Shown here: piece by piece, positions 13,252-50,541 of the stretch
Numbering within the stretch: the first letter of the stretch is position 1
Layout: every line of letters starts with the position of its first letter
Assembly (NCBI GenBank): GCA_022827685.1
Contig: JAJEIH010000059.1
Location: 1-57,210 of the forward strand
Length of the DNA stretch: 57,210 nt
Reading direction: 5' to 3'
Source of the DNA: Alphaproteobacteria bacterium
GTDB lineage: Bacteria > Pseudomonadota > Alphaproteobacteria > Bin95
The notes under the pieces: model-generated
The model's database searches: none
Seen by the model: only the letters and a program-made list of their open reading frames with translations
What the model was told of the DNA's origin: nothing
Translations under genes and position numbers: made by a program

Positions 13252-14235
13252 TCAGCCCCGCCCCTGCACCCGGGCCAGTTGCGCCGCCCCGCTGCGCCGC
13301 ACCAGCAGGTGTTCTCCATAGCGGTTCACCATCGCGGTGGACTTCCACCGGCCCGCATGAAGGATCGACGGCAGCTCGATGCCGGCGGCCACCATGTCCT
13401 GGGCCGCCCCGACCCGGGCGCTGTGCCCTGACAGGCCCCCTGCGACCGTTTCCGGCAGGCCGGCCGCGCGCGCCATCGCCTTGAGGATGCGCGGCACCTG
13501 GCTGGGATGCAGCTGCTCGCCGATCCGCCCGCTCTTGGTGACCGAGCGGAACAGCAGTCCCTCCGCGATCCCGGCACGATCGAGCCACTCGCGCACCATA
13601 TGGACGGTGTCCGCACCGACCCACACGACTTCGCCCCTGCCCTCGCAATCGGTCTTGGAGCGGCGCACCAGCAGGCTGCCGTCGCCCCGCACTTCCTCAA
13701 GCAGGTCAGGGACTTGCAATGACACAAGCTCCGCCCGGCGCAGCATCGCGTCGTAGGCGACGGCAAGCAGGGCGCGGTTGCGGTCGTCGATCGGTCTGTC
13801 GCCGGCCGCCTCCAGCAGGCGCTGGCGCAGCGGCCATGTCAGCCCCGTCGCCTGGTCCTGGCGCCGGCCCTTCTTCCGGTGCATGCGCTTGAGCGCAAGC
13901 TGCACCGGCGGGCTCTTCACCGTTCTCTCCAGCCCGAGTGCCCGGTGGGCGATACCGATGCTGGTGACGTAGCGGCGCACCGTGGCCGGCGCCCGCTCCT
14001 CCGCCATGGCGTCGATGAAGGCGGCGACGGTCTCGGGCTTTGCCGGCAGCGCCCGTTCCCCGCGCTCGGCGCACCATTCGCCATAGATGGCGAGGTCCGA
14101 CTTCAGCGCCCGCTCGGTGTTGCTTGCGAACGCGCCGCTTGCCGCCCGGACGAACCGTCCGAGCCGCTCGGAGAGCGCGGGGTCCCGGTCTCCCGCCGGC
14201 TCCTCCGAAGCGTTGAACGGGGGTTCAAGGAACAT
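13252..14235 (-). CDS. Tyrosine recombinase (site-specific integrase)
   Basis: A 327-residue protein. A SAM-like core-binding domain spans about 20-120 (NTERALKSDLAIYGEW, RYVTSIGIAHRAL), followed by the catalytic domain with Arg I in YDAMLRRAEL (R166/R167), Lys in RRSKTD (K194), box II HSAR (H271, R274), W297 in HAGRWKST, and nucleophile Tyr306 in NRYGE. All catalytic positions are present, so the enzyme should be active. Length and style fit the Cre-like group of integrases that lack an arm-binding domain. The gene sits between inverted lox-like palindromes at 12908-12939 and 14275-14306, which are plausible targets. Confidence 0.92.
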   Translation of the reverse strand: MFLEPPFNASEEPAGDRDPALSERLGRFVRAASGAFASNTERALKSDLAIYGEWCAERGERALPAKPETVAAFIDAMAEERAPATVRRYVTSIGIAHRALGLERTVKSPPVQLALKRMHRKKGRRQDQATGLTWPLRQRLLEAAGDRPIDDRNRALLAVAYDAMLRRAELVSLQVPDLLEEVRGDGSLLVRRSKTDCEGRGEVVWVGADTVHMVREWLDRAGIAEGLLFRSVTKSGRIGEQLHPSQVPRILKAMARAAGLPETVAGGLSGHSARVGAAQDMVAAGIELPSILHAGRWKSTAMVNRYGEHLLVRRSGAAQLARVQGRG

Positions 14236-14274
14236 TCAGGGGCCTCCGGACCGATCGCACACAGGAGCCCCGGA

Positions 14275-14306
14275 TTACTCGCGATAGCGACAGTTATCGC
14301 GAGTAA
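14275..14306. repeat. Lox-like palindrome, site B
   Basis: TTACTCGCGATAGC, GACA, GTTATCGCGAGTAA: arms match 13 of 14, or perfectly as 12-bp arms around the spacer GCGACAGT. The spacer is the reverse complement of the site A spacer at 7 of 8 positions, so the two sites are in inverted orientation. It lies 40 bases upstream of the recombinase start, in the divergent region shared with the autotransporter. Confidence 0.7.
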
Positions 14307-14396
14307 AAGCGGAAGGTGGCGGCGCGTGGATCCGGCCCTGCTGAGTGGATTGGCAAGTGCTGTTCGGCTCGACGGCCATGCAAGGCTGGGGCGGGG

Positions 14397-14464
<68 letters not shown>

Positions 14465-14847
14465 CCGATGATGTGTGGCGCGGAGGACACATCGCCTCAA
14501 TGGGGTGGTCTCGCGCCGGCACGGTCATGAGCGGGCGCGGCGTGTCCTCTTCCGGGCTTCCCCCGGGCGCGCGGGCCGGTGACGGCGGAGCGGCGCGGGC
14601 TCTCCCCGCTCACCCCGCCCGGCCCACCACGGAAGGGCCGGACGGGCGCGGCATTCGCAATGCCTTCCAACGCCGGCGGACCGCCCTGCCGGGCGCCGAT
14701 ACCGGCATTCCCGGGTCCGGCCGCGCGGCCGGTCGCTTCCTTTCGTTCGGGCGCCGCGGCGCGCCCCGGCCCGGATGCCTGTCCTCCCCGGGGCGGCGGG
14801 GGCCGCCGGTGCCGGACGGGGCGGAGCAAATCGTTCGAGGAGTTGAA

Positions 14848-17800
14848 ATGATGCACTCATCGACAGTCGAGACACCGAACGGTTCCGGGAGCACGGCGAC
14901 GTCCGGGACGGGCACCTCCCGCCGCTATGCGGCCTTGCTCTTCCGTCCCGCGCACCTCGCCCGCCGGGCGGCCCGCCTGACCGGCCCTGTCTTTCCGTTC
15001 GCCGGCCGACGCGCCCTGCGCACGGGGCTGCGCTCTGTCCATGCGTGGGCGGCGGCGCTCGCCGCCGGCCTCGCACTCACCCTTGCGGCGATGCCGATGT
15101 CGGCGCAGGCGCAGACGCAGACCAGCGTCACCCTGGTGAGCAATCACGGCCAGTCATCCGCCTGGGCGAGTATCGATGATAAGGACTACCGAACGCAGTT
15201 CACCACCGGCAGCCACGCCGGCGGCTACCGGCTGACCGGCGTGACCGTCGAGTTGAACCAGATAACCTCCTCGACCGTCGCCTTCAATGTGGCTGTTGGC
15301 GGTTCGTCCCTAGCAGATACAGTACTGACCGCCCCGGCCTCGCTGGTCAACGGGAACAACACATTCACGGCCTCCGGGAACGGCATCGACCTCGCCGCGA
15401 ACACGACCTATTACGTGTGGCTCGAGGTGACCGCCCAGGGGAACGGTAATGGCTTCATAAACCGCACGACTTCCGATGACGAAGACTCCGTCGTGGCGGC
15501 GGGCTGGAGCATCACGAATGACGGCGAATGGCGTGATTGGAACCTCGCCGACTGGAGTTCGACATCGTCTCTTCTGAAGTTCGCCATCAAGGGCTACGCG
15601 AAGGGCCAGAGCGCGCCCGTGGCACCGGCGGCCCCGACGGTGAGCGCGGTGCCGCTTCAGCCCGACCGCCTGGCGGTGCGCTGGACGGCGCCGGCCACGA
15701 CGGGGATCATCGACTACGACGTGCGCTACTACAAGGGCAGCGCCGACCCGGCGAACGAGGCGGACTGGATCGAGGCCGGCGAGACGGGCGGCCACGACCA
15801 CGCGGGCACGCTGACCCAGGCGACGATCACCGGCCTCGACCCGGTCTCCACCTACCGCGTGCAGGTGCGCGCCACCAATGCCGGGGGCATAAGTGCGTGG
15901 TCCGCCTCGGGCAGCGGACGGACGGAGGCGCCGGTCGGCGCGTGGGGCTCGTCGATGCAGGAGCTGGTGGGGAACACCGGGAAGGCGGTGGGCGGAAACC
16001 GTCCCCTTGCCAGTTTTGACGTGGCGCAGGGCTTCCGCTCGGCCGGTCACGGTCTCGGCTACACCGTCACCGACGTCGACGTGCTGTTCGGCACGGCCCC
16101 CGACGCCGGCGTGCGGGTCACGCTGGCGACCGGGTTGTCGTCGTCGAGCGCCGGGACCACGCTCGCCACGCTGCGCAATCCGGCGGCGCTCACCGCCGGC
16201 GTCAACACCTTCACCGCGCCCGCGGGCACCACCCTGGACGCCAATACGACCTACCACGTGGTCGTCGAAGGCGCGGCGGGCAGCCTGTCCTGGACGACAT
16301 CCAACGCCGAGGCCGGTTTGCTGGGCTGGCGTATAAACAACAGCGTCCACACCCGAGTCGCGTCCTCGACGGGAGGGTGGACGGGCAGTGGCGTGGCGTC
16401 GCTGATCCGCGTCAACGGCAGGGAGAACGTCGGCGATCCGCCCGGCGCGCCGGCGGCACCGACGGTGACCGCGGTGACCGGATCCACCGGCGTGACGGTA
16501 GGCTGGTCCGCGCCGGCCCACACCGGCTCGGGGATCACCGACTACGACGTGCGCTACTACGAGGGCAGCGCCGACCCGGCGAACGAGGCGGACTGGGTCG
16601 AGGAGGACGAGACGACCGGCCTGCCGGACACGTTCACGGCGGACGCGTCGACCAGCCTGACCATCACCGGGCTGAAGGCGAGCACCGCCTACCGGGTGCA
16701 GGTGCGCGCCGAGAGCCACGGCGCCCCGGGCCCGTGGTCCCCCTCGTCCTCGGTCACCACGAACGCGGGGACGGGCACGAACAACGCGCCGACCCTCGCG
16801 AAGCTCGCCGCGGTGGCCGCGAACGGCTGCATCGCGGATACCGGGAACAATTCGCGGGGAGCGCTCACCGTGACCGGCGGGCGGCTGGTGGACGCGAAGC
16901 GCACGGTGCGGGGCGAGAACCGGAGCGTGACGGTGCGGGTGCGCCCGTCCCAGTCCGGGGCCCTGACGCTGGCGCTGGCGGCGCCGACGGACTGCTCGGC
17001 GGCGGACGCGGTCTGCGCGAGCGACGGCCGCAAGCTCTCGGCCGCGGTCTCGGCATCGGTGCCGGGTCCGGACACGCCGCAGGTCACAGTGCCGGTGCTG
17101 TCCGTTGCGGATGCGCGCGCCGACGAAGGCGGCAGCCTCGCCTTCGCGGTGACGCTGAGCGAGGCGGCGGCGGGCGACGTCACGGTGGACTACGCCACCA
17201 GCGACGGCACGGCCAATGCGGGCGCGGACTACACCGCGGCCTCGGGCACGCTCACCTTCGCGGCGGGCGAGACGGCGAAGACGGTGTCGGTGGCGCTGCT
17301 GCATGACGGGTCCGCCGAGAACGACGAGACCGTGACGCTGACACTCTCCAACCCCTCGGGCGCCACGATCGGCGACGGCGAGGCGATCGGCACGGTGGCG
17401 GACGTGGCGCCGCTCACGGCGTCGTTCCACGGCCTGCCGGAGGAGCATGACGGCAGGAAGCTGTTCGCCTTCGAGGTCCGGTTCTCCGAGGAGTTCCAGG
17501 GCCTGAGGCTGACGGCGTTCAAGGCCGGCGCGCTCCAGGTGACGGGCGGCCGGGTGATCGACGCGAAGCGCACGGTGCGGGGGCAGAACCGCAGCGTGAC
17601 GGTGAAGGTGCGGCCGTCCTCGACCGACGACATGACGATCACACTGCCGGCGGTAACGGACTGTGCGGCGGCGAGCGCGATCTGCACGCATGACGGCAGG
17701 AAGCTCTCCCGCACGGTGACGGCGACGGTGCGGGGGCCGGTCGCGGTCTCGGTGGCGGATGCCGAGGCGCAGGAGGGCGCGGACGCGGCGGTCTCCTTCG

Positions 17801-19620
17801 CGGTGACGCTGAGCCGGGCCGCTTCCCGTGAAGTCGCGGTCGACTACGCGACGCGCGACGGCACGGCCACGGCGGGCGAGGACTACACCTTCACCCGCGG
17901 TACGCTGACCTTCGCCCAGGGCGAGACGGAGAAGACGGTCGAGGTGCCGATCCTCGACGACGCGCTCGACGAGGGCAGCGAGACGTTCACGCTGAAGCTG
18001 ACGGGCGCGCGGGGCGCGGCGATCGCCGACGGCGAGGCGACGGGCACCATCAAGAACTCCGATCCGCTGCAGACGATGTGGCTCTCGCGCTTCGGTCGCA
18101 CCGTCGCGGACCACGTGACGGCGGCCGTGTCCGACCGTCTGGCGAACCCGCTGACGGGCGCGCAGGTGACGGTGGGCGGCCAGACCATGAACCTTGCGGA
18201 GCTGGAGGACGAGGCGTGGCTCGGCCGGACGCTGACCTCGATCGCGCAGGTCATGGGCGCCCCGTCCGGGCCGGCGTCCGGCGGCGATCCCGGATCGGGG
18301 TCCCTCGATGCGGGTGATGCGCTCGGCCTGGGTGACGCGCCGACGGCCACCAGCGCGCCGGGGCGGCTGATGACGGGCCGCGAGCTGCTGCTCGGCAGCG
18401 CCTTCCATCTGGCGAAGGAAGGCGACGGCGCCACGCCGGGCCTTGCGGCCTGGGGCCGGGTGACGGTGGGCGGCTTCGACGGCGAGGCGCCGGCCGACGC
18501 CGGCAACGTGCGCATCGACGGCGATGTGACCACGGGGATCATCGGCACCGACGCCGAGTGGAACCGGGTGCTGGCGGGCGTCGCGGTCTCGGTGAGCGAG
18601 GGCGAGGGCAGGTTCGACCAGCCGGGTGTGGATTCCGGGACCATCGAGAGCACGATGACCACGGTGAACCCCTATGCGCGGCTGAGCGTGAACGAGCGGC
18701 TCTCGGTCTGGGGCCTTGCGGGCTACGGCACCGGCGACATGACCATCGTGCAGGATGCGCGGACCGTCACCGACTCCCAGGGCAACACGGTCAACAAGCC
18801 CAGGATGGTGACGAAGACCGACCTCTCGATGCGCCTTGCGGCGCTGGGCGGACGGGGCGCGCTGCTGACGGCGGACGGGGACGGTGGCATGGACCTCGCG
18901 CTCAAGGCGGACGGGTTCTTCGTCGAGACGACCTCCGAGGCCATCTCCAACGAGGGCGACACCACGGCGGATGCGAGCCGGGTGCGGCTCGCGCTCGAAG
19001 GCAGCCGCGCATTCCAGGCGGGCGATGGCGTGTTCACGCCGGGCCTTGAGCTGGGGCTCCGCCATGACGGCGGCGACGCCGAGACCGGCACCGGCGTCGA
19101 ACTCGGCGGGCGCCTGTCCTGGGCCGATGCGGGCTCGGGCCTCAGCATGGACCTGAATGCCCGTACGCTCATTGCGCATGAGGACTCGAACTACCGCGAG
19201 TGGGGCGCGTCGGGCGCGGTGCGTCTGGCCCCGGGCGAGCGGGGGCGCGGCCTCTCGTTCAGCCTCGCGCCCACATACGGGGTGCCGGGGAGCGGCGTCG
19301 ACCGGCTGTGGTCGGCGCAGGACGCGCGGGGCCTCGCGCCCACCGGCGGCGCGTTCGAGCCGGAGAGCCGGCTGGAGGGCGAGCTCGGCTACGGCATGGG
19401 GCTGTTCGGCGACCGCTTCACCGGCACGCCCAACCTCGGCTTCGGGCTCTCGGGCGCCGGGGCGCGGGATTACCGCATCGGCTGGCGGCTGACCTCGATG
19501 ATCCGGGGCGATGCCGGCTTCGAGGTCACGCTCGACGCCACCCGCAGCGAACCGGCGAACGACAACGGCGCCGGGGCGGCACAGCACGGCATCGGTCTCA
19601 GGCTGGCCGCCCGCTGGTAG
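14848..19620 (+). CDS. Autotransporter adhesin with fibronectin III and Calx-beta domains
   Basis: A 1590-residue product; the start is fixed by GAGGAG five bases before ATG 14848. A long basic N-region leads to a signal peptide ending near SAQAQ (about residue 88). Fibronectin III domains lie near 256-350 and 534-640, each with a DYDVRYY-GSADPANEADW strand pair. Repeated modules with DAKRTVRG-NRSVTV lie near 680 and 905, and Calx-beta domains near 747-850 and 964-1069 (VDYAT..GTA..G.DYT). From about 1176 to the final Trp is a beta-barrel translocator (GRELLLGSAFHL, LAAWGRVTVGGF, closing LRLAARW). It should be exported by Sec and displayed at the outer membrane, probably for adhesion. The near-identical repeats suggest duplication. 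The upstream (CCTG)17 tract may modulate expression. Confidence 0.88.
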   Translation: MMHSSTVETPNGSGSTATSGTGTSRRYAALLFRPAHLARRAARLTGPVFPFAGRRALRTGLRSVHAWAAALAAGLALTLAAMPMSAQAQTQTSVTLVSNHGQSSAWASIDDKDYRTQFTTGSHAGGYRLTGVTVELNQITSSTVAFNVAVGGSSLADTVLTAPASLVNGNNTFTASGNGIDLAANTTYYVWLEVTAQGNGNGFINRTTSDDEDSVVAAGWSITNDGEWRDWNLADWSSTSSLLKFAIKGYAKGQSAPVAPAAPTVSAVPLQPDRLAVRWTAPATTGIIDYDVRYYKGSADPANEADWIEAGETGGHDHAGTLTQATITGLDPVSTYRVQVRATNAGGISAWSASGSGRTEAPVGAWGSSMQELVGNTGKAVGGNRPLASFDVAQGFRSAGHGLGYTVTDVDVLFGTAPDAGVRVTLATGLSSSSAGTTLATLRNPAALTAGVNTFTAPAGTTLDANTTYHVVVEGAAGSLSWTTSNAEAGLLGWRINNSVHTRVASSTGGWTGSGVASLIRVNGRENVGDPPGAPAAPTVTAVTGSTGVTVGWSAPAHTGSGITDYDVRYYEGSADPANEADWVEEDETTGLPDTFTADASTSLTITGLKASTAYRVQVRAESHGAPGPWSPSSSVTTNAGTGTNNAPTLAKLAAVAANGCIADTGNNSRGALTVTGGRLVDAKRTVRGENRSVTVRVRPSQSGALTLALAAPTDCSAADAVCASDGRKLSAAVSASVPGPDTPQVTVPVLSVADARADEGGSLAFAVTLSEAAAGDVTVDYATSDGTANAGADYTAASGTLTFAAGETAKTVSVALLHDGSAENDETVTLTLSNPSGATIGDGEAIGTVADVAPLTASFHGLPEEHDGRKLFAFEVRFSEEFQGLRLTAFKAGALQVTGGRVIDAKRTVRGQNRSVTVKVRPSSTDDMTITLPAVTDCAAASAICTHDGRKLSRTVTATVRGPVAVSVADAEAQEGADAAVSFAVTLSRAASREVAVDYATRDGTATAGEDYTFTRGTLTFAQGETEKTVEVPILDDALDEGSETFTLKLTGARGAAIADGEATGTIKNSDPLQTMWLSRFGRTVADHVTAAVSDRLANPLTGAQVTVGGQTMNLAELEDEAWLGRTLTSIAQVMGAPSGPASGGDPGSGSLDAGDALGLGDAPTATSAPGRLMTGRELLLGSAFHLAKEGDGATPGLAAWGRVTVGGFDGEAPADAGNVRIDGDVTTGIIGTDAEWNRVLAGVAVSVSEGEGRFDQPGVDSGTIESTMTTVNPYARLSVNERLSVWGLAGYGTGDMTIVQDARTVTDSQGNTVNKPRMVTKTDLSMRLAALGGRGALLTADGDGGMDLALKADGFFVETTSEAISNEGDTTADASRVRLALEGSRAFQAGDGVFTPGLELGLRHDGGDAETGTGVELGGRLSWADAGSGLSMDLNARTLIAHEDSNYREWGASGAVRLAPGERGRGLSFSLAPTYGVPGSGVDRLWSAQDARGLAPTGGAFEPESRLEGELGYGMGLFGDRFTGTPNLGFGLSGAGARDYRIGWRLTSMIRGDAGFEVTLDATRSEPANDNGAGAAQHGIGLRLAARW

Positions 19621-19733: not shown

Positions 19734-21845
19734 ATGGCGGGAAAATCCCGGCCCATGGCCGAGGAAGACCTTCGGGCGTTCGAGCCGATCCCGTTCCCGG
19801 AGATCGGACCGAATGTGACATTCAACGCCAATTTCTGCCGCAACCCGATGTGCCCGTATTTCGGCCCGGCCCCCGACGCCGGGACCTATCGGGCCCGCTA
19901 TACGGTCGAGGCGGTGGAAGACAGGCCCTACGACCGGACGTATGAGTGCACTTTCTGCCGGAAGTCCTGGCCGCTGCTGTCGAACCGGTCGCTGCGCGCC
20001 GCCTATGCCTGGTTCAAGCGCCAGAGCGTGCCGTTCGCGGCCTGCTCCAGTCCCGACTGCGTGAACGAGGGCGTCAACGTCTTCGAATACCGCCGCCGCT
20101 ACCGGAACGACAGCAGCGCCAAGCCGCATCTCGCCCGATGCTCGTGCAGGAGCAGGACGACGGGGGAGGCGATCGGCAGGAAGGGTATGACCCTGGGCGA
20201 GGCCATAGACCTGCGCGGCACCAGGACCGAGGTCGCCAGCCGCCTGGAGGAGGTGTTCAGGTCCGCGCGCGACCGCGGGGGATTGCGCGACAAGATCGAC
20301 AATCTTCTGGCTTACCGGGGCTACGCCATCGGACGGTCCCGGTATCTGAGGACGCTCAAGAGGCTTGCGCCCCGCCTGCGCGACCTTCACAGCTACTGCA
20401 ATACCGGCCTCATGGCGCAGGACTGCCTGGCGCGGCTCGACCGGCTGTTCGAGGAGGAGCGCGACGCGGACAGGCCGGACGACGCCCTTCCGGGCAGCCC
20501 GTTCAACGGCGTCGCCACGCTCCGGACCGATGTGGCGAGCATCTCGCTCGGGAAGCGGAAGAAGTCCGCCCGGTCCCGGGCAGAGGACCGGGACCGCGAC
20601 CGGCACCACCTGCTCCAGGTCCGGATGACGGCGCTGCGCATCGACCGGTCGCATGTCGCGTCCGAGGAGAGAGGGAGCACGCATTTCCTGCTCGCGGCGC
20701 ATCCTTTCGTGGTCTTCAAGAAGAAAAAGAAAAAGGGCAAGGCGCTGCCGGAAGACGACGAGCCGGGGAAGATGCACGACGATGCGGTCCGTCCCGTTGC
20801 GGACCGGCAATACGACCATCTCTTTCACGAGGGCACCGACCATGGAAAGGATGCCCATCTGAAAAGGCAGCGGTCCTATCTGGCCGCGGGCGGCCTGTTC
20901 ATGCGCCCGGACTATGCCGAGCTTGCGCATTTCATGGTGGTGAAGGACCTGACGGCCCGGTTCCGGCGGGTCACATTGTGCATGGACGGGGACAGGACCG
21001 CCTACGCATACGCCACCGCCGCCTTCGCCAGGGACCTGCGGACCGTCTGCCATGACGGGGGTATGGAGTGCCGCCGCGCCGAGATCGCCGTCCTCCAGGC
21101 GCAACGGCGCTCCGGCAAGGGCGGCGTGTCCCGCGAAGAGCAGGACAGGATCTGCGACGTCGAGAACGAGCGCGTCGTCAGGGAATGGGACGAGAGGCTC
21201 GCCGCCAGGCTGGAGGAGGACGGGGCCGCCGATCTCGGGGACGAGGACCGGCGCCTGCTGGTGGCGAAGGCGAAGGTGGAGCTCTTCGAGCAGGTAACGG
21301 CCGGCGGCTGGGCAGCGGACGCGACATGGGGCTGGCGCAAGCGCCCGACCCAGAGGGGCAACCGTCTTCTGGCGTCGCTGTGGCTCTCGCAGGGCCCGGA
21401 CCGCGACGGGCCGCCGAACGCGGTCATCGACGAGTTCCTGCGGCGCTCCAGCCTGCAATCCGTGGACACCGCCATCAAGGGCCTCCGGGATACGTTTTCG
21501 TCCGGGAGGCGCCCCGAGAGCCGGGCGGGCGGGGGCATCACCTATTACCGGTCCTCGCGGGACGCCGAAGTCGCAGCCTGCCAGATATGGCTTTACAGCT
21601 TCTTCTCGAACTATCTGAGGTTCCGGATCGAACCCCGGAAACAGCGGGCCGGCCTTCTCGGGCTGCTGCGCCGGGAGGACCGGCAGCGGTTCGACATCGC
21701 CCGACTGCTGGAGTTCCAGCCGAACTGGGACCACGCCATCGAAATAACGGAAAGGACCGGCCATGGACAAGAGACCCTTCCTCGCCGGCGTCCAGCAGGA
21801 GCTGTACTTCCTGCAGTCGGCGCTTCGGGCCCTGGAGGACGGTAG
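19734..21845 (+). CDS. Divergent DDE-transposase-like protein with paired-cysteine motifs
   Basis: A 703-residue product (ATG 19734 after GGGGGAGAG; GTG 19728 also possible). Four paired-Cys motifs suggest zinc ribbons: C35/C40, C72/C75, C104/C109 and C136/C138. The rest aligns by eye with the protein at 27818-29701: first acidic site TDVAS (D266), second RVTLCMDGD (D418), then SVDTAIKGLRDTF (D578), RRPE and GGGITYYR, and a closing segment with NYLRF. This resembles the DDE fold and C-terminal signature of IS1-type transposases. A Lys-run insert (330-336) and a Glu/Asp-rich insert distinguish it from its relative. The reading frame overlaps the next gene by 83 bases. It could be a transposase, or one domesticated for another DNA transaction. 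Confidence 0.55.
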   Translation: MAGKSRPMAEEDLRAFEPIPFPEIGPNVTFNANFCRNPMCPYFGPAPDAGTYRARYTVEAVEDRPYDRTYECTFCRKSWPLLSNRSLRAAYAWFKRQSVPFAACSSPDCVNEGVNVFEYRRRYRNDSSAKPHLARCSCRSRTTGEAIGRKGMTLGEAIDLRGTRTEVASRLEEVFRSARDRGGLRDKIDNLLAYRGYAIGRSRYLRTLKRLAPRLRDLHSYCNTGLMAQDCLARLDRLFEEERDADRPDDALPGSPFNGVATLRTDVASISLGKRKKSARSRAEDRDRDRHHLLQVRMTALRIDRSHVASEERGSTHFLLAAHPFVVFKKKKKKGKALPEDDEPGKMHDDAVRPVADRQYDHLFHEGTDHGKDAHLKRQRSYLAAGGLFMRPDYAELAHFMVVKDLTARFRRVTLCMDGDRTAYAYATAAFARDLRTVCHDGGMECRRAEIAVLQAQRRSGKGGVSREEQDRICDVENERVVREWDERLAARLEEDGAADLGDEDRRLLVAKAKVELFEQVTAGGWAADATWGWRKRPTQRGNRLLASLWLSQGPDRDGPPNAVIDEFLRRSSLQSVDTAIKGLRDTFSSGRRPESRAGGGITYYRSSRDAEVAACQIWLYSFFSNYLRFRIEPRKQRAGLLGLLRREDRQRFDIARLLEFQPNWDHAIEITERTGHGQETLPRRRPAGAVLPAVGASGPGGR

Positions 21846-22623
21846 GGAGAGCCGGCGCCCGGCGATCGAACTGGTGGAAGCCAGGATCGAGCAGGACGGC
21901 CTGGACGACGGGCACCTGGAGGGGCTGGGGCTCTTCGGCGCGCCCGAGGAGGACGATGACGGCGATCCCGCCGCCCCGCCCTGGGAGGCGGTCCTCCCGG
22001 CGATGGCGTTCGACTGCCTCGACGAACTCCGGCAGCTGAAGCTGATCGACGAGGACGACCGCGTCACGCCCGACGGGCGCCGCTGCATGAGGGATGTCGG
22101 CCCGCTGCAACGGGCCGTCCGGCACCATTACACGATCGCGGGGGCCGACCGCGTGGAGCGCCCGGTGGTCGGGCAGCTGACGAACGTGTTCGCGGCCTTC
22201 ACCAGGCTCGGCACGGAGCGCAGGGACGACCCGTTCTCCGTGATCTACCGCCCGGCGCTCTGCCTTGCCGAGTTCATGCGGCTGCATTTCTGGATGCAGG
22301 CGCTGGAACGCAGGCCCGGCACCCGGCAGTTCGCCGCAATGCTCGTGGAGGAGCGCAAACAGGACCTCGCGGGAATGGAGGTCGAGAACGACGACATCGA
22401 CTGGGCCGCCTTCTGCGTGGCGGGCGGCGCGGGGCGGCGTCTCGAGACGCTGCATGGCGAGGACGTCGGGCAGCGGATCGCCGCGGTCAAGTCCACCGCG
22501 CTGATGCTCTTCCACGCCGGTTTCCTCGCATTCGAGGGATTCCCCGGCGAACTCCAGTGGCTCCGCCCCGCGGACCGCAAGGTGCTGGAGCGCCGTCTCG
22601 TGCAGATGGGAGCGGGCTCATGA
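21763..22623 (+). CDS. Unknown operon protein with possible winged helix
   Basis: A 286-residue acidic protein beginning MDKRPFLAGVQQELYFLQSAL. An acidic linker (PEEDDDGDP) near 65-72 separates two helical parts. The segment CLDELRQLKLIDEDDRVTPDGR (shown here in words: a helix, then a hairpin with D-D-R-V-T-P-D-G-R) resembles the wing region of a winged-helix DNA-binding domain. No catalytic motif is visible. It starts 83 bases before the end of the preceding gene, and its stop overlaps the next ATG (ATGA at 22620), so the three genes are translationally coupled and probably work together. No family is recognised. Confidence 0.6.
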   Translation: MDKRPFLAGVQQELYFLQSALRALEDGRESRRPAIELVEARIEQDGLDDGHLEGLGLFGAPEEDDDGDPAAPPWEAVLPAMAFDCLDELRQLKLIDEDDRVTPDGRRCMRDVGPLQRAVRHHYTIAGADRVERPVVGQLTNVFAAFTRLGTERRDDPFSVIYRPALCLAEFMRLHFWMQALERRPGTRQFAAMLVEERKQDLAGMEVENDDIDWAAFCVAGGAGRRLETLHGEDVGQRIAAVKSTALMLFHAGFLAFEGFPGELQWLRPADRKVLERRLVQMGAGS

Positions 22624-23591
22624 CGCGGCCGGCGCGCATCCAGGTGGGAGACCCGAAATCGCAGCCGATGGTCCCCTTTCCGCCCCCCGGCCACGATTTC
22701 GGCCCGCGCAGGATCGCAGACGCTGCCTCCTACATTCTGGAAGACGATTACGGGGTCAACCTCGATCGGATCTACTGTCTCATCGGCTTCGATGCGGCCG
22801 CCCTCGCGAAGTATCTGCGTCTCAAGAAGAAGGAGGAGGCGCTGATCGCAGACGGTCGGCTCCCGCCCCTGTCGAAGGTGCAGAGGTCGTTGCGGCCCGT
22901 CGTCAGGGCGGTCGGGCTCGAACTGACGACCGGCCTGTTCCTGGCCTGCCTCGACAGTCCGGCCCGGACGGCCTGCCCGTGCGGCGTGTACATCGACGAT
23001 GAGGGCCGCCCGGTTCCCATGGCCCCGGCGGGACAGGGCCTCGCCGACGCCAGGGCGGACTATGAGGGCTTCTCCGTCATCGCGGAAGTCACGATCGGCA
23101 AGAAGACCCGGCGGGAACCCCTCCGCAGGCAGTACAACAGCGCCGTCAGCCATATCGCCACGATCCTTGCGGAGCGGAACGCAAGGCGCGGCTACTGTCT
23201 CATGGTGAGCCGCGCCAAACTCAGCGATGAGCAGGTCCCCGTCCTCATCGTTGAGGCGCAGGAGAAACTGGAAAGAAACCACGGGCCCGGCAATGTCAGG
23301 GTCCTCGCCTTCGGCATCGAGGAAATGGCGCATGTCGCCGACCAGCTGGGCCGGCTCCACTGGACCGACGAGGAGGCCCGGCCGCTGACGGCGGCGGACC
23401 TGGGCGACATTCTGGACACGCTGCATGACGGGATGATGGCGTGGATATCGTCCGGCAAGCCGTTCCCCGAACACTGGGCCGCCAGGCAATTCGAGAAACT
23501 GCTCCGCGCGCACGCCAGGGGCAGGCCGGTGAAGACGCTGTTCGACCGACCGGCCGAACAGGCCGGTCAGGCGGCAGGACCGGCTTCGTGA
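22620..23591 (+). CDS. PD-(D/E)XK nuclease-like protein (AlwI-like)
   Basis: A 323-residue protein. Residues about 135-170 read ADYEGFSVIAEVTIGKKT followed by an RRQYNSAVSHI helix. A hydrophobic strand ending E-V-T after an upstream acidic residue, with a following R-R-Q helix, is the pattern of the AlwI-type branch of PD-(D/E)XK endonucleases, where E-V-T replaces E-x-K. Further strands (YCLMVSRAKL, VPVLIVEAQEKLE, VRVLAFGIEEM) fit the fold. The start is set by the ATGA overlap with the previous stop. As the third member of the operon with a transposase-like protein, it invites comparison with nuclease plus DDE pairs such as TnsA/TnsB, but that is inference only. Confidence 0.55.
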   Translation: MTRPARIQVGDPKSQPMVPFPPPGHDFGPRRIADAASYILEDDYGVNLDRIYCLIGFDAAALAKYLRLKKKEEALIADGRLPPLSKVQRSLRPVVRAVGLELTTGLFLACLDSPARTACPCGVYIDDEGRPVPMAPAGQGLADARADYEGFSVIAEVTIGKKTRREPLRRQYNSAVSHIATILAERNARRGYCLMVSRAKLSDEQVPVLIVEAQEKLERNHGPGNVRVLAFGIEEMAHVADQLGRLHWTDEEARPLTAADLGDILDTLHDGMMAWISSGKPFPEHWAARQFEKLLRAHARGRPVKTLFDRPAEQAGQAAGPAS

Positions 23592-23626: not shown

Positions 23627-24508
23627 TCAGGCTCGTTTGGTCGATCTTCCCATCAAGGAACGAACAAGCGCTTCCGATCGCCCCGCAATAATGTCGCTAT
23701 GCGCTGCAGTTGCTCTGTTGATTGACCTGATAATCGACTCCCTCTCGCGGTTCAGACGAAATTTGAATCCCCGATCGGGAAAGGCCGTAACCTGGATTGC
23801 AACATCGTGAGCAACGGGAAGCCAGTTGCCGCCCGATGAGGCCCCGTCCTGCATTACGGTGAGCCCGTGGCTTCCGATGACGAAACTCCGCTTCGGCAAC
23901 TCTATCAGCGCAAGGCCCCAGCCTGTCTCCCGCGAGAATCTCTTTGTGTCATCTTCCAGAATATGGTGCGCTCCCGCTGCGAAATTCGCACTTTGGTTGG
24001 CCTTCATTGTCCGCTTTATTTTCGATATACCGGGATCCAGATCGAACCAATCCTGTTCCGGGACATCGTAGCCTGCACTCCTGAGGAGATCCTTTGCTAC
24101 GGTATCGAACACCTCTTCGAAGCTCCTGTCCGCTTCGCTAAAGACTCGGTCCTGGGATTCAGGTGTCCGCCTCGCCATAGCGATCACGAACTCCTTGAGT
24201 CGTCTGTCCATCGCCAAATTTAGTCGAGGATTGAGGCCGGCTCTTGCCTGATCGATCACATTCGATATTGCGGATTTTGCATTACTCTCAATTCTGGACA
24301 GAACCTGTTCATACTCGTAACTGTCAGTCCCCCGACTGTAGTCATGATGAGAATACAGATTTCTCTCCGCGAACACATTCTTGGGCGTTGTCCGGTAGCA
24401 TTTCCCGCGTACTTTATCCCCTACCCACAGGACTCCTTCATCGTCACAGAAATTTCTGAGCAACATTTGCGGGATATAGTGATGATTTCTCGGACGATTC
24501 GCACCCAT
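23627..24508 (-). CDS. DUF4238 protein
   Basis: A 293-residue protein that opens NHHYIPQMLLRNFCDDEGVL and continues with KVRGKCYRTTPKNVFAERNLY. N-H-H-Y-[VI]-P-Q-x-x-L-R-N-F at the extreme N-terminus is the defining signature of DUF4238. A later conserved region has FVIGSHGLTVMQDG followed by LPVAHDVAIQV, also typical. Function is unknown; these proteins are scattered by horizontal transfer and found near defence genes. The gene converges with the three-gene operon, ending 35 bases from its stop. Its GC content is lower than that of the neighbours. Confidence 0.85.
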   Translation of the reverse strand: MGANRPRNHHYIPQMLLRNFCDDEGVLWVGDKVRGKCYRTTPKNVFAERNLYSHHDYSRGTDSYEYEQVLSRIESNAKSAISNVIDQARAGLNPRLNLAMDRRLKEFVIAMARRTPESQDRVFSEADRSFEEVFDTVAKDLLRSAGYDVPEQDWFDLDPGISKIKRTMKANQSANFAAGAHHILEDDTKRFSRETGWGLALIELPKRSFVIGSHGLTVMQDGASSGGNWLPVAHDVAIQVTAFPDRGFKFRLNRERESIIRSINRATAAHSDIIAGRSEALVRSLMGRSTKRA

Positions 24509-27355: not shown

Positions 27356-27367
27356 TATTCTTCGAGA

Positions 27368-27811
27368 ATGATCTACGCAGACGGCATGCACGGGCGGTTC
27401 CGGCCGGGCTACGGGGCGCAGTTCATCCATGTCGCTGCCGCCATCGCTGAGGAACGCGCCGAAATCGACCGGCTGATCGCCCGAGGCGCGAACCCCGATG
27501 CCCGCGACGCGGGCGGCTGCACGCCGCTGCACTACGCCGCCTGGAACAACCCGGTTGGGGCCGTGGCCCGGGCGCTGTTCGAGGCCGGGGCCGACCCGGA
27601 AGCCTGCGACGGGCACGGCCGGAAGCCGCTCGACTACGCCATCAGCGCCGGCAATACGGCCTTCATCGAGGCGGCGCTGGACGCCGGCGCCGATCCGGCC
27701 GGCAGCGGCGACGCCTTCGGGGAAGCGCGGGACGAGGCCCGCGCCTGCCCCGCCTTCGCCCGGAGCCCGGCCTACAGGCGCCTGATGCTGGCTTCGGCCC
27801 GGCGCGGCTGA
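27368..27811 (+). CDS. Ankyrin-repeat protein
   Basis: A 147-residue protein with about three ankyrin repeats: AAIAEERAEIDRLIARGANP, then DAGGCTPLHYAAWNNPVGAV, then DGHGRKPLDYAISAGNTAFI and a degenerate fourth (EAALDAGADPAGSGD). Ankyrin repeats are protein-binding scaffolds; the target is unknown. The gene abuts the IS66 relic on the left and converges on the transposase-like gene on the right (6-base gap). The start lies at the edge of the relic, so the original N-terminus may have been lost or replaced. Confidence 0.8.
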   Translation: MIYADGMHGRFRPGYGAQFIHVAAAIAEERAEIDRLIARGANPDARDAGGCTPLHYAAWNNPVGAVARALFEAGADPEACDGHGRKPLDYAISAGNTAFIEAALDAGADPAGSGDAFGEARDEARACPAFARSPAYRRLMLASARRG

Positions 27812-27817
27812 ATCCTG

Positions 27818-29701
27818 TCAGAGCTTGAGCGCGCGCCCCTTGCGCCGGATGCGCCGGGGCTTGGGGATCCTCTCGCCCGGCCAGAGAATGTCGGCATAGG
27901 AGAGCGGGCGGTCGGCGAAACCCAGGCGCATGGCGGGCGTCTCGCCGTCCTTCCTGCCGGTGTGGACGAAATTGTTCACCGCCCGGAAGATGTCGAGATA
28001 TTTCCGCACCATGTCCGGGTTGTAGGGCGCATAGCCGTACCAGACCTGGTTCCAGCCGCCGCTCGGCGTATAGAAGGGCCGCTCCAGGGGCGAGAGGAAC
28101 CGGCGGGTCAGCTCGAAGACATTGTCGACCCGTCCGAGCGAGGCCCCGAGATAGAGCCGGGCCCTGTCGTCCAGCTCCATGTCCGGGTGCTCCGTGATCC
28201 AGCGGACCTCCTTGTTCGGCTCCTGCAGCGTCGGCAGCGGATGGCGCAGCCACCCATGCTCCGGCAGGCCGCCGCCGCGCAGGGCGGTCCGGATCATCTC
28301 GAAGCCGAGTTCCTCCCTGCTCATGCCTTCGAGATTGCGCGCCTGGGCGAAAGCCTCCATCTGCCGCCTGGACTCCTTGTAGAGCCGCTCGCGGTCGTCG
28401 ATCGGGCAGTCCTTGTCATAGCGCACCAGGAAGCCGTGGGCGCGGCCCTCGGCGATCGGCTCCCGGAACGCGCACATGAAGGAGGCAATGGTCGAAAGAT
28501 GCTCGTCCATGGAGAGTTGCAGCCGCTCCACGCCGGCGCCCTTCAGGATCTCGCGCAGCACGAACATGTGCCCGAGCGTGCGGTAGCCCGTCTTCACCAG
28601 CATGCCGGAGCGCAGCATGTGGTCGCGCAGCGGCCCCTGGCCCGGCACGATCTCCATCTCCGCCACGTCGTCATAGGCGTTGGCCTCCCGGAAGGCGTCC
28701 TGGATGTCTCCGACGGCCCGCTCGGCGGCCGCCCGGCCCATGCGGCGCTGGCCGGTGCGCCCGCTGCGCATCTCGTCGCCGGTGAGCCAGAAGCGGGCAT
28801 ATCTGCGGAACGCCTCCTTGCGGGTCATGTCGCCCAGTTCGGCCGACTCGTGGTTGACGTCGAAGGCGTCGAAGCGCGGGTCGTGGTTGACGTCCAGTTC
28901 GAGGATGAAGCGCGAGGCGCTGTCCACGCTGCAGCAGGAGGTCATCTCGACGGTACGGCGCTGGACCCGGCTCGGCCAGTTGACCATGAGCGTCTGGGAG
29001 TCGATGGCGACGTCCATCGCCGCCGGCAGGTGGCGTTCGCCGGTCAGGAAGGCGCGGGTGACCGAGCCGTTCATCTCCAGGCAGCGCCGGTGGATGAAGT
29101 CGAGGATCCTGTAATAGGCGGAATTGCCGGAAAGCCCGGCCCCTTCCACCGTGCGGCGCATCGGCGACTTGTTGGCGAAGCGCGAGAACACGTCCGCGGC
29201 CCGCGCCCGGTTCCCGGCGCGAATCCGCGGAACCTTCACCGAGACCAGCACGCGGCGCTGGCAGGCCTTGCACTGGTAGTAACGGTTCTCCGGCGTCTTG
29301 TAATAGCCGCGCCTCACATAGAGGTGGCGATGCTCGCCGATGGAGAGCCCCTCATTGGCGCAGCCCTCGGTCTTGCAGGCGAAGCGGTGCTCCAGCGGCC
29401 GGACATAACCGGCGATGCGCTCGATCTCCTCGGCAATGGCCGCGTTGGAGCGGACAGCGCCCTTGCCCCGGCACGCCTTGCACTCGATCGCGGGCTCCTG
29501 GCCCTTGGCGGTCGAAGTCAGCTTGTAGCGCAGGTCGCGGTCTTTGCTCGGGCCCCGCTTGCCGGGACTGGTGCGGGCCGGCACGCCGAAATTGGCGCAG
29601 CCGGGCGTGCGGCAGTGGTTGACCTGCACCGGGAACGGCGTGCCGAGAATGCTGGCATTGGCGGTCTCGGGGACCCGGACCGTGCGGGGTCTGGAAGCCA
29701 T
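27818..29701 (-). CDS. Solo DDE-transposase-like protein with four paired-Cys motifs
   Basis: A 627-residue product. ATG 29701 has AGGAGGAGAG just upstream and a strong promoter behind it. Paired Cys lie at C30/C35, C74/C77, C109/C114 and C144/C147. A helix-turn-helix-like part follows (about 170-205: KSPMRRTVEGAGLSGNSAYY). Candidate catalytic acids are AIDSQT (D234), LQLSMDEH (D399) and SLGRVDNVFELTRRF (D526 or E530), and the end, NNFVHTGRKDGETPAMRLG, reads like an IS transposase C-terminus. The motif order and several blocks match the protein at 19734-21845, although overall identity is low. I infer a divergent IS1-like transposase family. No terminal inverted repeats were found by eye. Confidence 0.6.
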   Translation of the reverse strand: MASRPRTVRVPETANASILGTPFPVQVNHCRTPGCANFGVPARTSPGKRGPSKDRDLRYKLTSTAKGQEPAIECKACRGKGAVRSNAAIAEEIERIAGYVRPLEHRFACKTEGCANEGLSIGEHRHLYVRRGYYKTPENRYYQCKACQRRVLVSVKVPRIRAGNRARAADVFSRFANKSPMRRTVEGAGLSGNSAYYRILDFIHRRCLEMNGSVTRAFLTGERHLPAAMDVAIDSQTLMVNWPSRVQRRTVEMTSCCSVDSASRFILELDVNHDPRFDAFDVNHESAELGDMTRKEAFRRYARFWLTGDEMRSGRTGQRRMGRAAAERAVGDIQDAFREANAYDDVAEMEIVPGQGPLRDHMLRSGMLVKTGYRTLGHMFVLREILKGAGVERLQLSMDEHLSTIASFMCAFREPIAEGRAHGFLVRYDKDCPIDDRERLYKESRRQMEAFAQARNLEGMSREELGFEMIRTALRGGGLPEHGWLRHPLPTLQEPNKEVRWITEHPDMELDDRARLYLGASLGRVDNVFELTRRFLSPLERPFYTPSGGWNQVWYGYAPYNPDMVRKYLDIFRAVNNFVHTGRKDGETPAMRLGFADRPLSYADILWPGERIPKPRRIRRKGRALKL

Positions 29702-29726
29702 CGCTCTCCTCCTCGAAGAGCTCCCC

Positions 29727-29755
29727 ATCATAACGCCGGAGGGGCCTCCTGTAAA
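29727..29755 (-). promoter_or_regulatory. Sigma70-type promoter of the solo transposase-like gene
   Basis: On the minus strand TTTACA (29755-29750), a 17-base spacer and TATGAT (29732-29727) make a near-consensus promoter, about 25 bases before the start codon of the gene. The spacer contains GGAGGCCCCTCC, a perfect palindrome that could be an operator for autoregulation. Confidence 0.65.
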
Positions 29756-29764
29756 GCCTCTTTT

Positions 29765-29787
29765 TTGATTTTATATAATAAAATCAA
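29765..29787. repeat. AT-rich inverted repeat
   Basis: TTGATTTTA, five bases, then TAAAATCAA: perfect 9-bp arms in otherwise GC-rich DNA, just upstream of the -35 element of the solo transposase-like gene. It may be an UP-like element, an operator or part of an element end. Its right half belongs to a 15-bp direct repeat (next entry). Confidence 0.55.
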
Positions 29788-29789
29788 TG
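29775..29789 (+). repeat. 15-bp direct repeat, left copy
   Basis: ATAATAAAATCAATG is repeated exactly at 32057-32071. The two copies bracket the GIY-YIG, AbiTii and toxin-antitoxin-remnant segment. Confidence 0.55.
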
Positions 29790-30098
29790 TGTTGTAACAA
29801 TAGACCCTGGCACCGGCCTGGGCCGAACTCATCGCACGGCGTGTCAGAAGCGGAGCAGGATTGTACCGGCGCGGCCGAGCCGGCCGTCGGCTTCCCGTGG
29901 CCCATCCTTCCACCGCCGCTGACGCTTCGCGGCCCCGGCTGCGGGGCCACCGGAAGCCGACGGCCGCAATGGTGGCCGGCAGATCGCTGTTGGACTGCGC
30001 GAGGGGACAGGTGTAGCCGTATTCCGTGTCGAAGCGGGCGTCCGGCGGCTCGCCGCTCTCATCGACCAGTGGGCTCAGTCGCGTATTCCAGTCCTTGG
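29790..30098 (-). other. Intergenic region with a protein-like remnant
   Basis: No complete gene is seen. On the minus strand about 29950-30110 reads TKDWNTRLSPLVDESGEPPD, then ARFDTEYGYTCPLAQ, a protein-like stretch without a proper start and running on into low-quality sequence. It may be the relic of a gene cut by insertion. I cannot place it in a family. Confidence 0.3.
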
Positions 30099-30618: not shown

Positions 30619-31539
30619 TCACGTCAGCCCATAGTATCGTTTCGCTATCTCAATGATTGCGGACTTTGCAACAGACTTCCCAAGATCCCATGCTTCTGAG
30701 GCGACCGCTTTCGCCTTGTTCTTCAGCCACTCTTGAGCATGCGTGCCTAATGGAATTTCTTTATCCTGTGGTTTCTCCCTAGCCATAATTCCCGCAAATG
30801 CCTTTGCATCTCCGGGGGAAAAGCCAGCCGACTCAAGAGCTTTAGTCAGAGACAATGTATCTCCTTTGGTAACACAAAAATTTGCCGTAGATGTGGATTG
30901 AATATTGACATTTTCCACATCTCCATAGAAAATATTCTGCGTTAAATTATTAATGGCTTCCTGTTCAATTGAGGTTATTGCACCACTCTCTTGCCCAACT
31001 ACAATTTCAGCGGCTGCTGGAACCTGCTTTTCTATTTTCAAGGAAAAATCAAGGGCCTTGGCCCTTACGGTATGTTGAACTTGTGTGAGCGCTGATCTGC
31101 TGATACAGCCCCTTGTCTCGATAAGGGTCATATTTTTGTAAAATTTGCCTTGGAGAAGAATTTTCAGATTGCTACAGTCGAATGAGAAATTGTCATCTTT
31201 GTCGAGATTCCTTATCTGGTCATCTATTACGGGTAGTCCTGCAAGGATTTTGTATCTCACCCACTGCTCACCAGCCTCAGAATCGATCAAATAGCTTGGG
31301 ATGGATACGTTGCGCAACTGCACTCCAGAATTCATGTAATCGCCAGTGTAGCTGGGATATGTTATTCGATAATCGGGAATTTGCACGTCATCCGGATAAC
31401 CTTCGGTTTCATATCGCACCCATTCCTCCAGAATGTCTGCATCCAGCTTCGACGCCAAAAAGCGAAGTTTCAGGAGCGTGGTTCCAACACCGATTGTGTC
31501 GTCGAGGAGTGCTGCCTGGATGTCGTGTAGCAGAGGCAT
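30619..31539 (-). CDS. AbiTii-domain protein (abortive-infection-like)
   Basis: A 306-residue protein with AAGGAGG upstream of the ATG. Residues 1-100 match the AbiTii pattern: a first helix (LLHDIQAALLDDTIGVGTTL), LRFLASKLDADILEEWVRYE, then GYPDDVQIPDYRI and later VSIPSYLI. Family members are linked to abortive infection. The C-terminal half is different: FYGDVENVNIQSTSTA, then GDTLSLTKALESAGFSPGDA and KEIPLGTHAQEWL, an arrangement also seen in other AbiTii proteins of unknown mechanism. The gene is distinctly AT-rich against its surroundings. The mechanism of defence is not known from sequence. Confidence 0.75.
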   Translation of the reverse strand: MPLLHDIQAALLDDTIGVGTTLLKLRFLASKLDADILEEWVRYETEGYPDDVQIPDYRITYPSYTGDYMNSGVQLRNVSIPSYLIDSEAGEQWVRYKILAGLPVIDDQIRNLDKDDNFSFDCSNLKILLQGKFYKNMTLIETRGCISRSALTQVQHTVRAKALDFSLKIEKQVPAAAEIVVGQESGAITSIEQEAINNLTQNIFYGDVENVNIQSTSTANFCVTKGDTLSLTKALESAGFSPGDAKAFAGIMAREKPQDKEIPLGTHAQEWLKNKAKAVASEAWDLGKSVAKSAIIEIAKRYYGLT

Positions 31540-48357: not shown

Positions 48358-48514
48358 GCTCCTGAATATATCGCATCTCGATATACGATGAAACGAAGCA
48401 GCCGGCAACTGACGCCCGGGAAAGCTGAGACGGACGCGCCGAACATGACCTATCGTGACGCATGGCGCGGCGCGCTATGCTGGTCTTGAAACGGGCGGAA
48501 GGGGGATACGGGAC

Positions 48515-49282
48515 ATGGCGGGAATGCTGGCGGGCAAGGCAGCGCTGATTACCGGGGGCGCGAACGGCATCGGGCGCGCGACCGCGCTGCTCTTCGCCGG
48601 GGAGGGCGCGCGGGTGGCCGCGGCCGACCTCAACCTCGAAGGGGCGGAGGAGACCGCGGCCATGATCCGCGAGGCGGGCGGCGAGGCGGTTGCGCTCTCC
48701 GTCGAGGTGTCGGACGCCGGACAGGTCGAGGCGATGGTGGACGCCACCGTCGAGGCGTTCGGGCGGATCGACTGCGCGTTCAACAATGCCGGCATCGCGC
48801 CGATCAATGTCGGCAACAACGCCAAACGGACCCATAGCTGGTCGGAGGAAGGCTTCGACCGCATGATCGAGGTCAACCTCAAGGGCGTGTGGCTGTGCAT
48901 GAAGAGCGAGATCGCACGCATGCTGAAGACGGGCGGCGGGGCCATCGTCAACACCTCCTCCATCGCGGGCCTCGCCGGCCTGCCGACCTCGTCGGGCTAT
49001 GTCGCGGCCAAGCACGGCGTCTCCGGGCTCACGCGCACGGCCGGCATCGAATACGCCACCGACAATATCCGCGTGAACGCCGTCTGCCCCGGCTTCATCG
49101 CCACCGACATGACCCGCGAGGTCATGTCCCGGCGCGGCAACGAGCTCATGGCCCTGGTGCCGGCGCGGCGCATGGGCGAGGCGCGGGAGATCGCGGAGAT
49201 GGTCTGCTGGCTCTGCTCGGACCGCTCCGGCTTCGTCACCGGGGCCACCTACAATGTCGATGGCGGCTACATGGCGTCCTGA
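48515..49282 (+). CDS. SDR oxidoreductase (tandem copy 1)
   Basis: A 255-residue classical SDR: TGGANGIGRATALLFAGEGA, CAFNNAGIAPINVG, catalytic Ser in NTSSIAGLAG, YVAAK and the closing TGATYNVDGGYMAS. An Asp after strand two (AADLNLEGAEE) predicts NAD(H) preference. It has a Gly/Ala-rich ribosome site (GGGGGATACGGGAC). It is very similar to the following gene in every segment, so the two arose by tandem duplication. Substrate unknown. Confidence 0.92.
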   Translation: MAGMLAGKAALITGGANGIGRATALLFAGEGARVAAADLNLEGAEETAAMIREAGGEAVALSVEVSDAGQVEAMVDATVEAFGRIDCAFNNAGIAPINVGNNAKRTHSWSEEGFDRMIEVNLKGVWLCMKSEIARMLKTGGGAIVNTSSIAGLAGLPTSSGYVAAKHGVSGLTRTAGIEYATDNIRVNAVCPGFIATDMTREVMSRRGNELMALVPARRMGEAREIAEMVCWLCSDRSGFVTGATYNVDGGYMAS

Positions 49283-49307
49283 CGGGCGGAACGGGGGAAA
49301 CAGGGAC

Positions 49308-50078
49308 ATGGCCGGAATGCTGGACGGCAAGGCGGCGCTCATTACCGGGGGCGGCAACGGCATCGGGCGCGCGACGGCGCTGCTGTTTGCGCAGGAAGGG
49401 GCGCGGGTGGCGGCCGCGGACCTCAACCTCGAAGGGGCGGAGGAGACCGCCGCCATGATCCGCGAGGCCGGCGGCGAGGCCGTTGCGCTTGCCGTGGAAG
49501 TGGTGGAAGCGGAGCAGGTCGAGGCGATGCTGGATGCGGCGGTCGAAGCCTTCGGGCGGATCGACTGCGCCTTCAACAATGCAGGCATCGGCCCGGCGAA
49601 CATCGACCATTACGCCCGGCGCACCCACGAATGGACCGAGGAAGGCTTCGACCGGATGATCGCGGTCGACCTCAAGGGCGTGTGGCTCTGCATGAAGGGC
49701 GAGATCGAGCGGATGAAGGCGGACGGGGGCGGCGGGACGATCGTCAACACCTCGTCGGTCGCCGGCCTGCTCGGCCTGCCGGGCGGCTGCGGCTATGTCG
49801 CGGCCAAGCACGCCGTCTCGGGCCTCACGCGCACCGCCGGCATCGAATACGCCGCCGACAGCATCCGCGTGAACGCCGTCTGCCCCGGCTATATCACGAC
49901 CGACATGACGCGCATGGCGCGGGCCCGGCGCGGCAACGAGCTGATGAACCGCGTGCCGGCGCGCCGCATGGGCGAGGCGCAGGAGATCGCCGAGATGGTC
50001 TGCTGGCTCTGCTCCGACCGCTCCAGCTACGTCACCGGCGCCACTTACAATGTCGATGGCGGCTACGTGGCGTCGTGA
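49308..50078 (+). CDS. SDR oxidoreductase (tandem copy 2)
   Basis: A 256-residue classical SDR with the same motifs as its neighbour: TGGGNGIGRATALLFAQEGA, CAFNNAGIGPANID, NTSSVAGLLG, YVAAK, TGATYNVDGGYVAS. The closing and N-terminal segments are almost identical, while the loop after NNAG and the region around RMKADGGGG differ, which suggests different substrates. It follows the first copy by 25 bases. Confidence 0.92.
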   Translation: MAGMLDGKAALITGGGNGIGRATALLFAQEGARVAAADLNLEGAEETAAMIREAGGEAVALAVEVVEAEQVEAMLDAAVEAFGRIDCAFNNAGIGPANIDHYARRTHEWTEEGFDRMIAVDLKGVWLCMKGEIERMKADGGGGTIVNTSSVAGLLGLPGGCGYVAAKHAVSGLTRTAGIEYAADSIRVNAVCPGYITTDMTRMARARRGNELMNRVPARRMGEAQEIAEMVCWLCSDRSSYVTGATYNVDGGYVAS

Positions 50079-50541
50079 CCACGGAAGGGCGCAAAGGCTA
50101 GGCAGGCAGCCATAGCTCTCTTTCGTTCGATTGATATGAAATAATTCTGAATTAAAGCTTGATCTCAGAGAAACCTGAGCCAATATAGGGCTGGAGGAAG
50201 GGAGCGGTATCCGCGCGGGGCCGTTTCTTCTCCTGTGCCGCGCCGGCGCGAAAAAACCCCTGAGAAACGGACGGGAGGAGTGCGTCCTCTGCCTCGCGCG
50301 CGCAATCAGGTGCGCGAACCGCGCCGCCGCGATACGCGCGCCGGCACGCGCGCGGGCGCCCGCGCAGGATACGCGCGAATCAGGGTCCCGCCGCTCCGGC
50401 AACCGGGCGGTGGGAGGAACGGAACGAAGACGGATCGAGAGGATAAGCCCATGCCGAAGACGAGGGATCGGAGAAACCGGATGGAATACCCGGAGCGCAT
50501 GCCCGAACAGGACACAGCATATGCGCCCGGCGCATGCAGAT

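Follow-up and report, generated by a model that had tools for sequence, protein, structure and literature searches.

Does a transposase relative encoded together with a restriction-type nuclease still move DNA, or has it been turned to defence? Three overlapping genes, which we named A, B and C, raise this question in a 57,210-nt stretch of DNA from an Alphaproteobacteria bacterium (contig JAJEIH010000059.1 of assembly GCA_022827685.1), the whole of which is hereafter called the window. The initial annotation had offered both answers, a new heteromeric transposon or a tamed transposase recruited into a defence system. The features that bear on the question are listed in Table 1.

Table 1. Positions of the three genes, their neighbours and a related mobile element; coordinates are those of the window unless another locus is named.
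Feature	Position	Strand	Description
Gene A	19734..21845	+	703 aa; transposase-derived
Gene B	21763..22623	+	286 aa; predicted fold closest to the N.BspD6I recognition part
Gene C	22620..23591	+	323 aa; AlwI/BspD6I-type PD-(D/E)XK cleavage protein
P0004	27818..29731	-	637 aa; full D-D-E relative of A (D244, D409, E550)
Ankyrin-repeat gene	27368..27811	+	convergent with P0004 and conserved with it
Calx-beta repeat gene	13879..19620	+	large, autotransporter-like layout; ends 114 bp before A
DUF4238 gene	23627..24508	-	adjoins C; variable part of the island
AbiTii gene	30619..31539	-	abortive infection; defence neighbour
dfrG-linked element	L036:5347-8622, L037:5347-8611		9-bp target duplications, read from two plasmids

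The overlaps between the three genes, already noted in the initial annotation, were borne out. The A-B overlap spans 83 bp (21763-21845), and B and C meet in an ATGA (22620-22623), a junction that is conserved in relatives. Because A stops about 24 codons sooner in the relatives, where its overlap with B is about 8 bp, the 83-bp overlap is peculiar to the window copy. The expectation that the trio travels together also held. The complete 3.9-kb A-B-C cassette occurs in identical gene order in three further genomes of the same genus, G003 (locus L038), G002 (L039/L091) and G006 (L040), and the copy at L041 is truncated by the contig end with its gene order unchanged. G006 carries several copies and many fragments, the broken copies containing in-frame stops, and G005 retains only a piece of C. 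The copies in the window, L038 and L039 are fully open. Between L038 and L039, dN/dS is 0.28 for A, 0.13 for B and 0.28 for C, and for C it is 0.20 between L041 and L042; all three genes evolve under purifying selection. Since the ordered trio recurs in three other genomes and dN/dS in close pairs is 0.13-0.28, we consider it more than a chance arrangement. The module is not essential, as the G006 copies have decayed.

Beyond the genus, profiles of A, B and C found nothing in the 385 genomes sampled from the class, apart from one weak match to B. When single proteins were searched against data holding one genome per species, we recovered related MAGs and one member (L011) of the insertion sequence (IS) family described below. 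No credible match was obtained for A, B or C in plasmids, for A in phage records or for the trio in viral contigs, and none of the three proteins individually had a confident match in Pfam, NCBIfam, PADLOC or PHROG. Two candidates for a distant homologue of B were set aside: the match in Neorhizobium proved to be the antisense of repeat genes, and that in genome G134 was weak.

For gene C, five of the six proteins matched RE_AlwI (PF09491) with a best E-value of 2.8e-4, at a score of 20.4 bits, which lies under Pfam's own cut-off of 23.1 bits. Searched against solved structures, the C profile matched N.BspD6I (E 9.5e-4, residues 446-518), and hhalign against seven AlwI-family enzymes, in which C matched the cleavage half, gave 83.5% with an E-value of 8e-6. 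D147, E156-V-T, Q171 and H178 are invariant, in keeping with the E-V-T type PD-(D/E)XK core proposed at the outset; the early description of C as an AlwI-like nuclease also stands. Judged by its sequence, C represents the cleaving half of a type IIS nuclease of the AlwI/BspD6I type.

B had been described as a protein of no known family. This is correct for its sequence, for which we found no relation, including to the AlwI enzymes, but not for its predicted fold. AlphaFold gave a model of fair quality (pLDDT 75, pTM 0.75), for which Foldseek alone returned no significant match. After re-alignment, the top five rows were all N.BspD6I entries (chain 10-457, about 208 residues), with Z of 11.1-11.3, the best being Z 11.3 over 208 residues, which falls below the Z of about 13 advised for helical models; the next row reached 7.1, and FokI and PaqCI 6.5. 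The model suggests that B may be the recognition half of a type IIS enzyme. Since C independently matches the remainder of the enzyme that the fold of B resembles, the simplest reading is that B and C together make up a split BspD6I/AlwI-type type IIS nuclease. R.BspD6I itself has a large subunit for recognition plus cleavage and a small cleavage-only subunit (PMC4081073).

A has full-length homology to P0004 and its IS family (hhalign 99.8%, E 1.7e-29), and is also homologous to plasmid proteins annotated as 'insertion element protein' or hypothetical. This homology upholds the transposase-like character first assigned to A, but structure prediction did not confirm an RNase H core: the AlphaFold model is poor (pLDDT 42), its order of strands and helices is of the RNase H type, and its matches to the RNase H-like transposases ISCth4, Hermes, Tn5 and Mos1 are weak (Z 2-4). 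Three of the four paired-Cys motifs originally listed, CRNPMC (35-40), CTFC (72-75) and CSSPDC (104-109), are conserved zinc-ligand pairs, whereas the fourth (CSC, 136) is degenerate in the window copy.

The acidic sites of A, which had been likened to those of a DDE fold, agree with it in two positions out of three. D266 and D418 correspond in the alignment to the first and second catalytic Asp of the transposase family, and both are retained in every readable copy. At the position of the catalytic Glu (E550 in P0004), the alignment places R592 for the window copy, Ala for those of L038 and L039, and Ser for that of L040; Arg was read from the translation of L041. As aligned, the third catalytic residue is missing in all readable copies. 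The Asp of a 'VD' motif (D578 in A) was considered as the third acid and rejected. It is replaced by Asn in the Enterococcus member, whose element has repeats and duplications, and the Glu of LERP is invariant, so we took the Glu, as aligned, to be catalytic. A looks like a tamed transposase, and its dN/dS indicates that it has been maintained without the catalytic Glu.

The P0004 family is a real insertion sequence. Its triad, D244, D409 and E550 in P0004 numbering, is invariant in 9/9 members, and terminal repeats of 25-40 bp and target duplications of 6-9 bp accompany L035, L036, L037, L079 and L080. In L036 and L037 the ends match over about 39 bp and the duplications measure 9 bp. L035 has a perfect 27-bp repeat with CTGTATC flanking both sides, and L079 and L080 are similar. 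In Enterococcus/Staphylococcus plasmids, the trimethoprim resistance gene dfrG lies inside such an element with terminal repeats of about 39 bp, adjoining a transposase of the P0004 family. In the window, P0004 and the convergent ankyrin gene form a module (27366-29851) that is conserved in four genomes with the D-D-E triad intact.

We weighed whether the trio could be a heteromeric transposase following TnsA/TnsB logic. A, or A together with the intact P0004, would then join the ends, and B and C would take over the role of TnsA in cutting the other strand. C as a restriction-type nuclease, A as a transposase relative and the several copies and fragments in G006 would all suit this explanation. 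So would the distribution of P0004: within the genus it is found in exactly the 4/8 genomes that carry A, and in the window, L039 and L042 its distance past C is 3.4-4.1 kb, in unchanged orientation and with exchangeable defence genes in between. Against it, the catalytic Glu is absent from all readable copies of A, neither the trio nor the P0004 module showed flanking terminal repeats or target duplications, and no ATPase family, including the TnsC type, exceeded the cut-off in A, B or C. Repeat motifs of the IS family scored no better in the window than in shuffled sequence. One pair of loci initially resembled a transposition between L038 and L039, which share a unit of 3931 bp at 96.4% identity that ends abruptly. 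This move was rejected: since a segment downstream and the P0004 module are likewise 93-95% identical between the two genomes, L038 and L039 are most simply one shared locus. Given the Glu loss and the missing ends, the live new transposon first envisaged is not supported, and we regard the TnsA/TnsB-like explanation as unlikely, though it is the chief rival.

According to a second explanation, the trio is a methylase-less restriction-like system, with B and C as an ordinary type IIS enzyme, A as an accessory or regulatory DNA binder, and protection of self DNA coming from a different methylase or from a lack of sites. The resemblance of C, and possibly of B, to the AlwI/BspD6I enzymes would follow directly. 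However, 5/6 of the AlwI-family plasmid enzymes examined adjoin an annotated Dam-family methylase, whereas in the window and in L091 the tested genes that adjoin the trio included no methyltransferase. A is, in addition, linked in every complete copy and under selection, which makes this explanation quite unlikely. L042 contains a type IIG enzyme and L041 a type IIG fragment; the type IIG enzyme-methylase beside the G006 copies looks like a separate system. In an Apilactobacillus sequence (L062:1-496), we noticed an AlwI-like gene preceded, in the usual position of the Dam methylase, by an annotated IS1595 transposase, an annotation that may be wrong. The idea that the trio is a decaying remnant of an element, now without function, draws on the broken G006 copies with their in-frame stops and many fragments, the piece of C in G005 and the narrow distribution, but with three fully open copies and dN/dS of 0.13-0.28 for L038/L039 it is the least probable of all.

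The surroundings of the trio contain defence genes. Besides AbiTii in the window and the type IIG genes of L042 and L041, AbiLi lies 0.2 kb from C in L091 with Avs2 also nearby, and an E1/ThiF and a capP-like gene are found near the C remnant of G005. This enrichment is suggestive rather than proven, since of ten control proteins taken from elsewhere in these genomes, 3/10 likewise matched PADLOC, the matches being methylases and a helicase. Tandem tyrosine-recombinase-like genes occur near copies or remnants of the trio (L038:3633-6019, L042:9793-12143 and L048:3397-5754), which suggests an integrative island. Elsewhere in the window, two adjoining stretches of about 0.8 kb, 84% identical, form a tandem duplication (48491-50079).

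Upstream of the trio, a relative of the Calx-beta repeat gene occupies the equivalent place in L038 and L039. We considered that the trio might target the ends of such genes, behind which it stands in three genomes, but find this doubtful. The genes are multi-copy, a close relative in G005 is followed by other genes, and one G006 copy has upstream sequence without a Calx-beta gene. As a separate observation, the Calx-beta repeat genes (that of the window and L070-L077) give 4 to 40 matches per genome, and their downstream neighbours diverge sharply directly 3' of the stop codon.

Taken together, the reading that we favour, though tentatively, is a defence-island module in which a tamed A, with B, aims the nuclease C at DNA. 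The second answer of the initial annotation, a defence system made from a tamed transposase, fits better than a live transposon does; the defence role, the complex and its target are inferred. A, B and C would be co-expressed as one module within the defence island. A, which descends from a D-D-E insertion sequence transposase, retains the DNA-binding zinc fingers and two catalytic Asp; because the catalytic Glu is lost, its most likely role is to bind DNA, such as the ends of transposons or foreign DNA of another kind, and to leave it uncut. B and C would supply the recognition and cleavage halves of an AlwI/BspD6I-type nuclease on separate chains, so that A and B would position C on the target, which C may nick or cut. 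That a catalytically dead transposase serves as a sensor of mobile-element DNA directing a split type IIS nuclease, and so founds a new DNA-targeting class of immune module, is a bolder claim that we consider doubtful. The trio is compact, at the size given above, and has no match in the PADLOC defence library. As it fails the tests for an active insertion sequence, a Tn7-like element and a classical restriction-modification system, we file it as a new combination of known parts.

Transposases have been tamed many times, and Tn7 includes a restriction-type nuclease, TnsA. Compared with the IS family, exemplified by the dfrG-linked element, A has the same zinc-finger N-terminus and two catalytic Asp along its full-length homology. 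Members of the IS family carry a single large transposase gene with an invariant Glu, together with terminal repeats and duplications of 6-9 bp, whereas A is without the Glu and the repeats and is accompanied by the partners B and C. The AlwI and R.BspD6I enzymes (PF09491) are matched by C in the sequence of the cleavage half and, for N.BspD6I, by B in predicted fold; the trio differs in placing recognition and cleavage on what would be separate chains, in having no adjoining Dam-type methylase and in its attached transposase relative. Catalytically inactive long prokaryotic Argonautes are RNase H-fold proteins kept with partner effectors (PMC10620215). They share only this principle with the trio, as A is transposase-derived, and we claim no sequence relation. 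Tn7 resembles the trio in joining a restriction-type nuclease, TnsA, which resembles FokI (PMC10188703), to a D-D-E-derived protein, TnsB. Unlike Tn7, the trio has no TnsC-like ATPase, no terminal repeats that we could find and no catalytic Glu in A, and its nuclease is of the AlwI type and apparently split. If our reading is correct, a transposase deprived of its Glu together with a two-piece AlwI-type nuclease would be an independent instance of the pairing known from Tn7, possibly redirected from mobility to defence.
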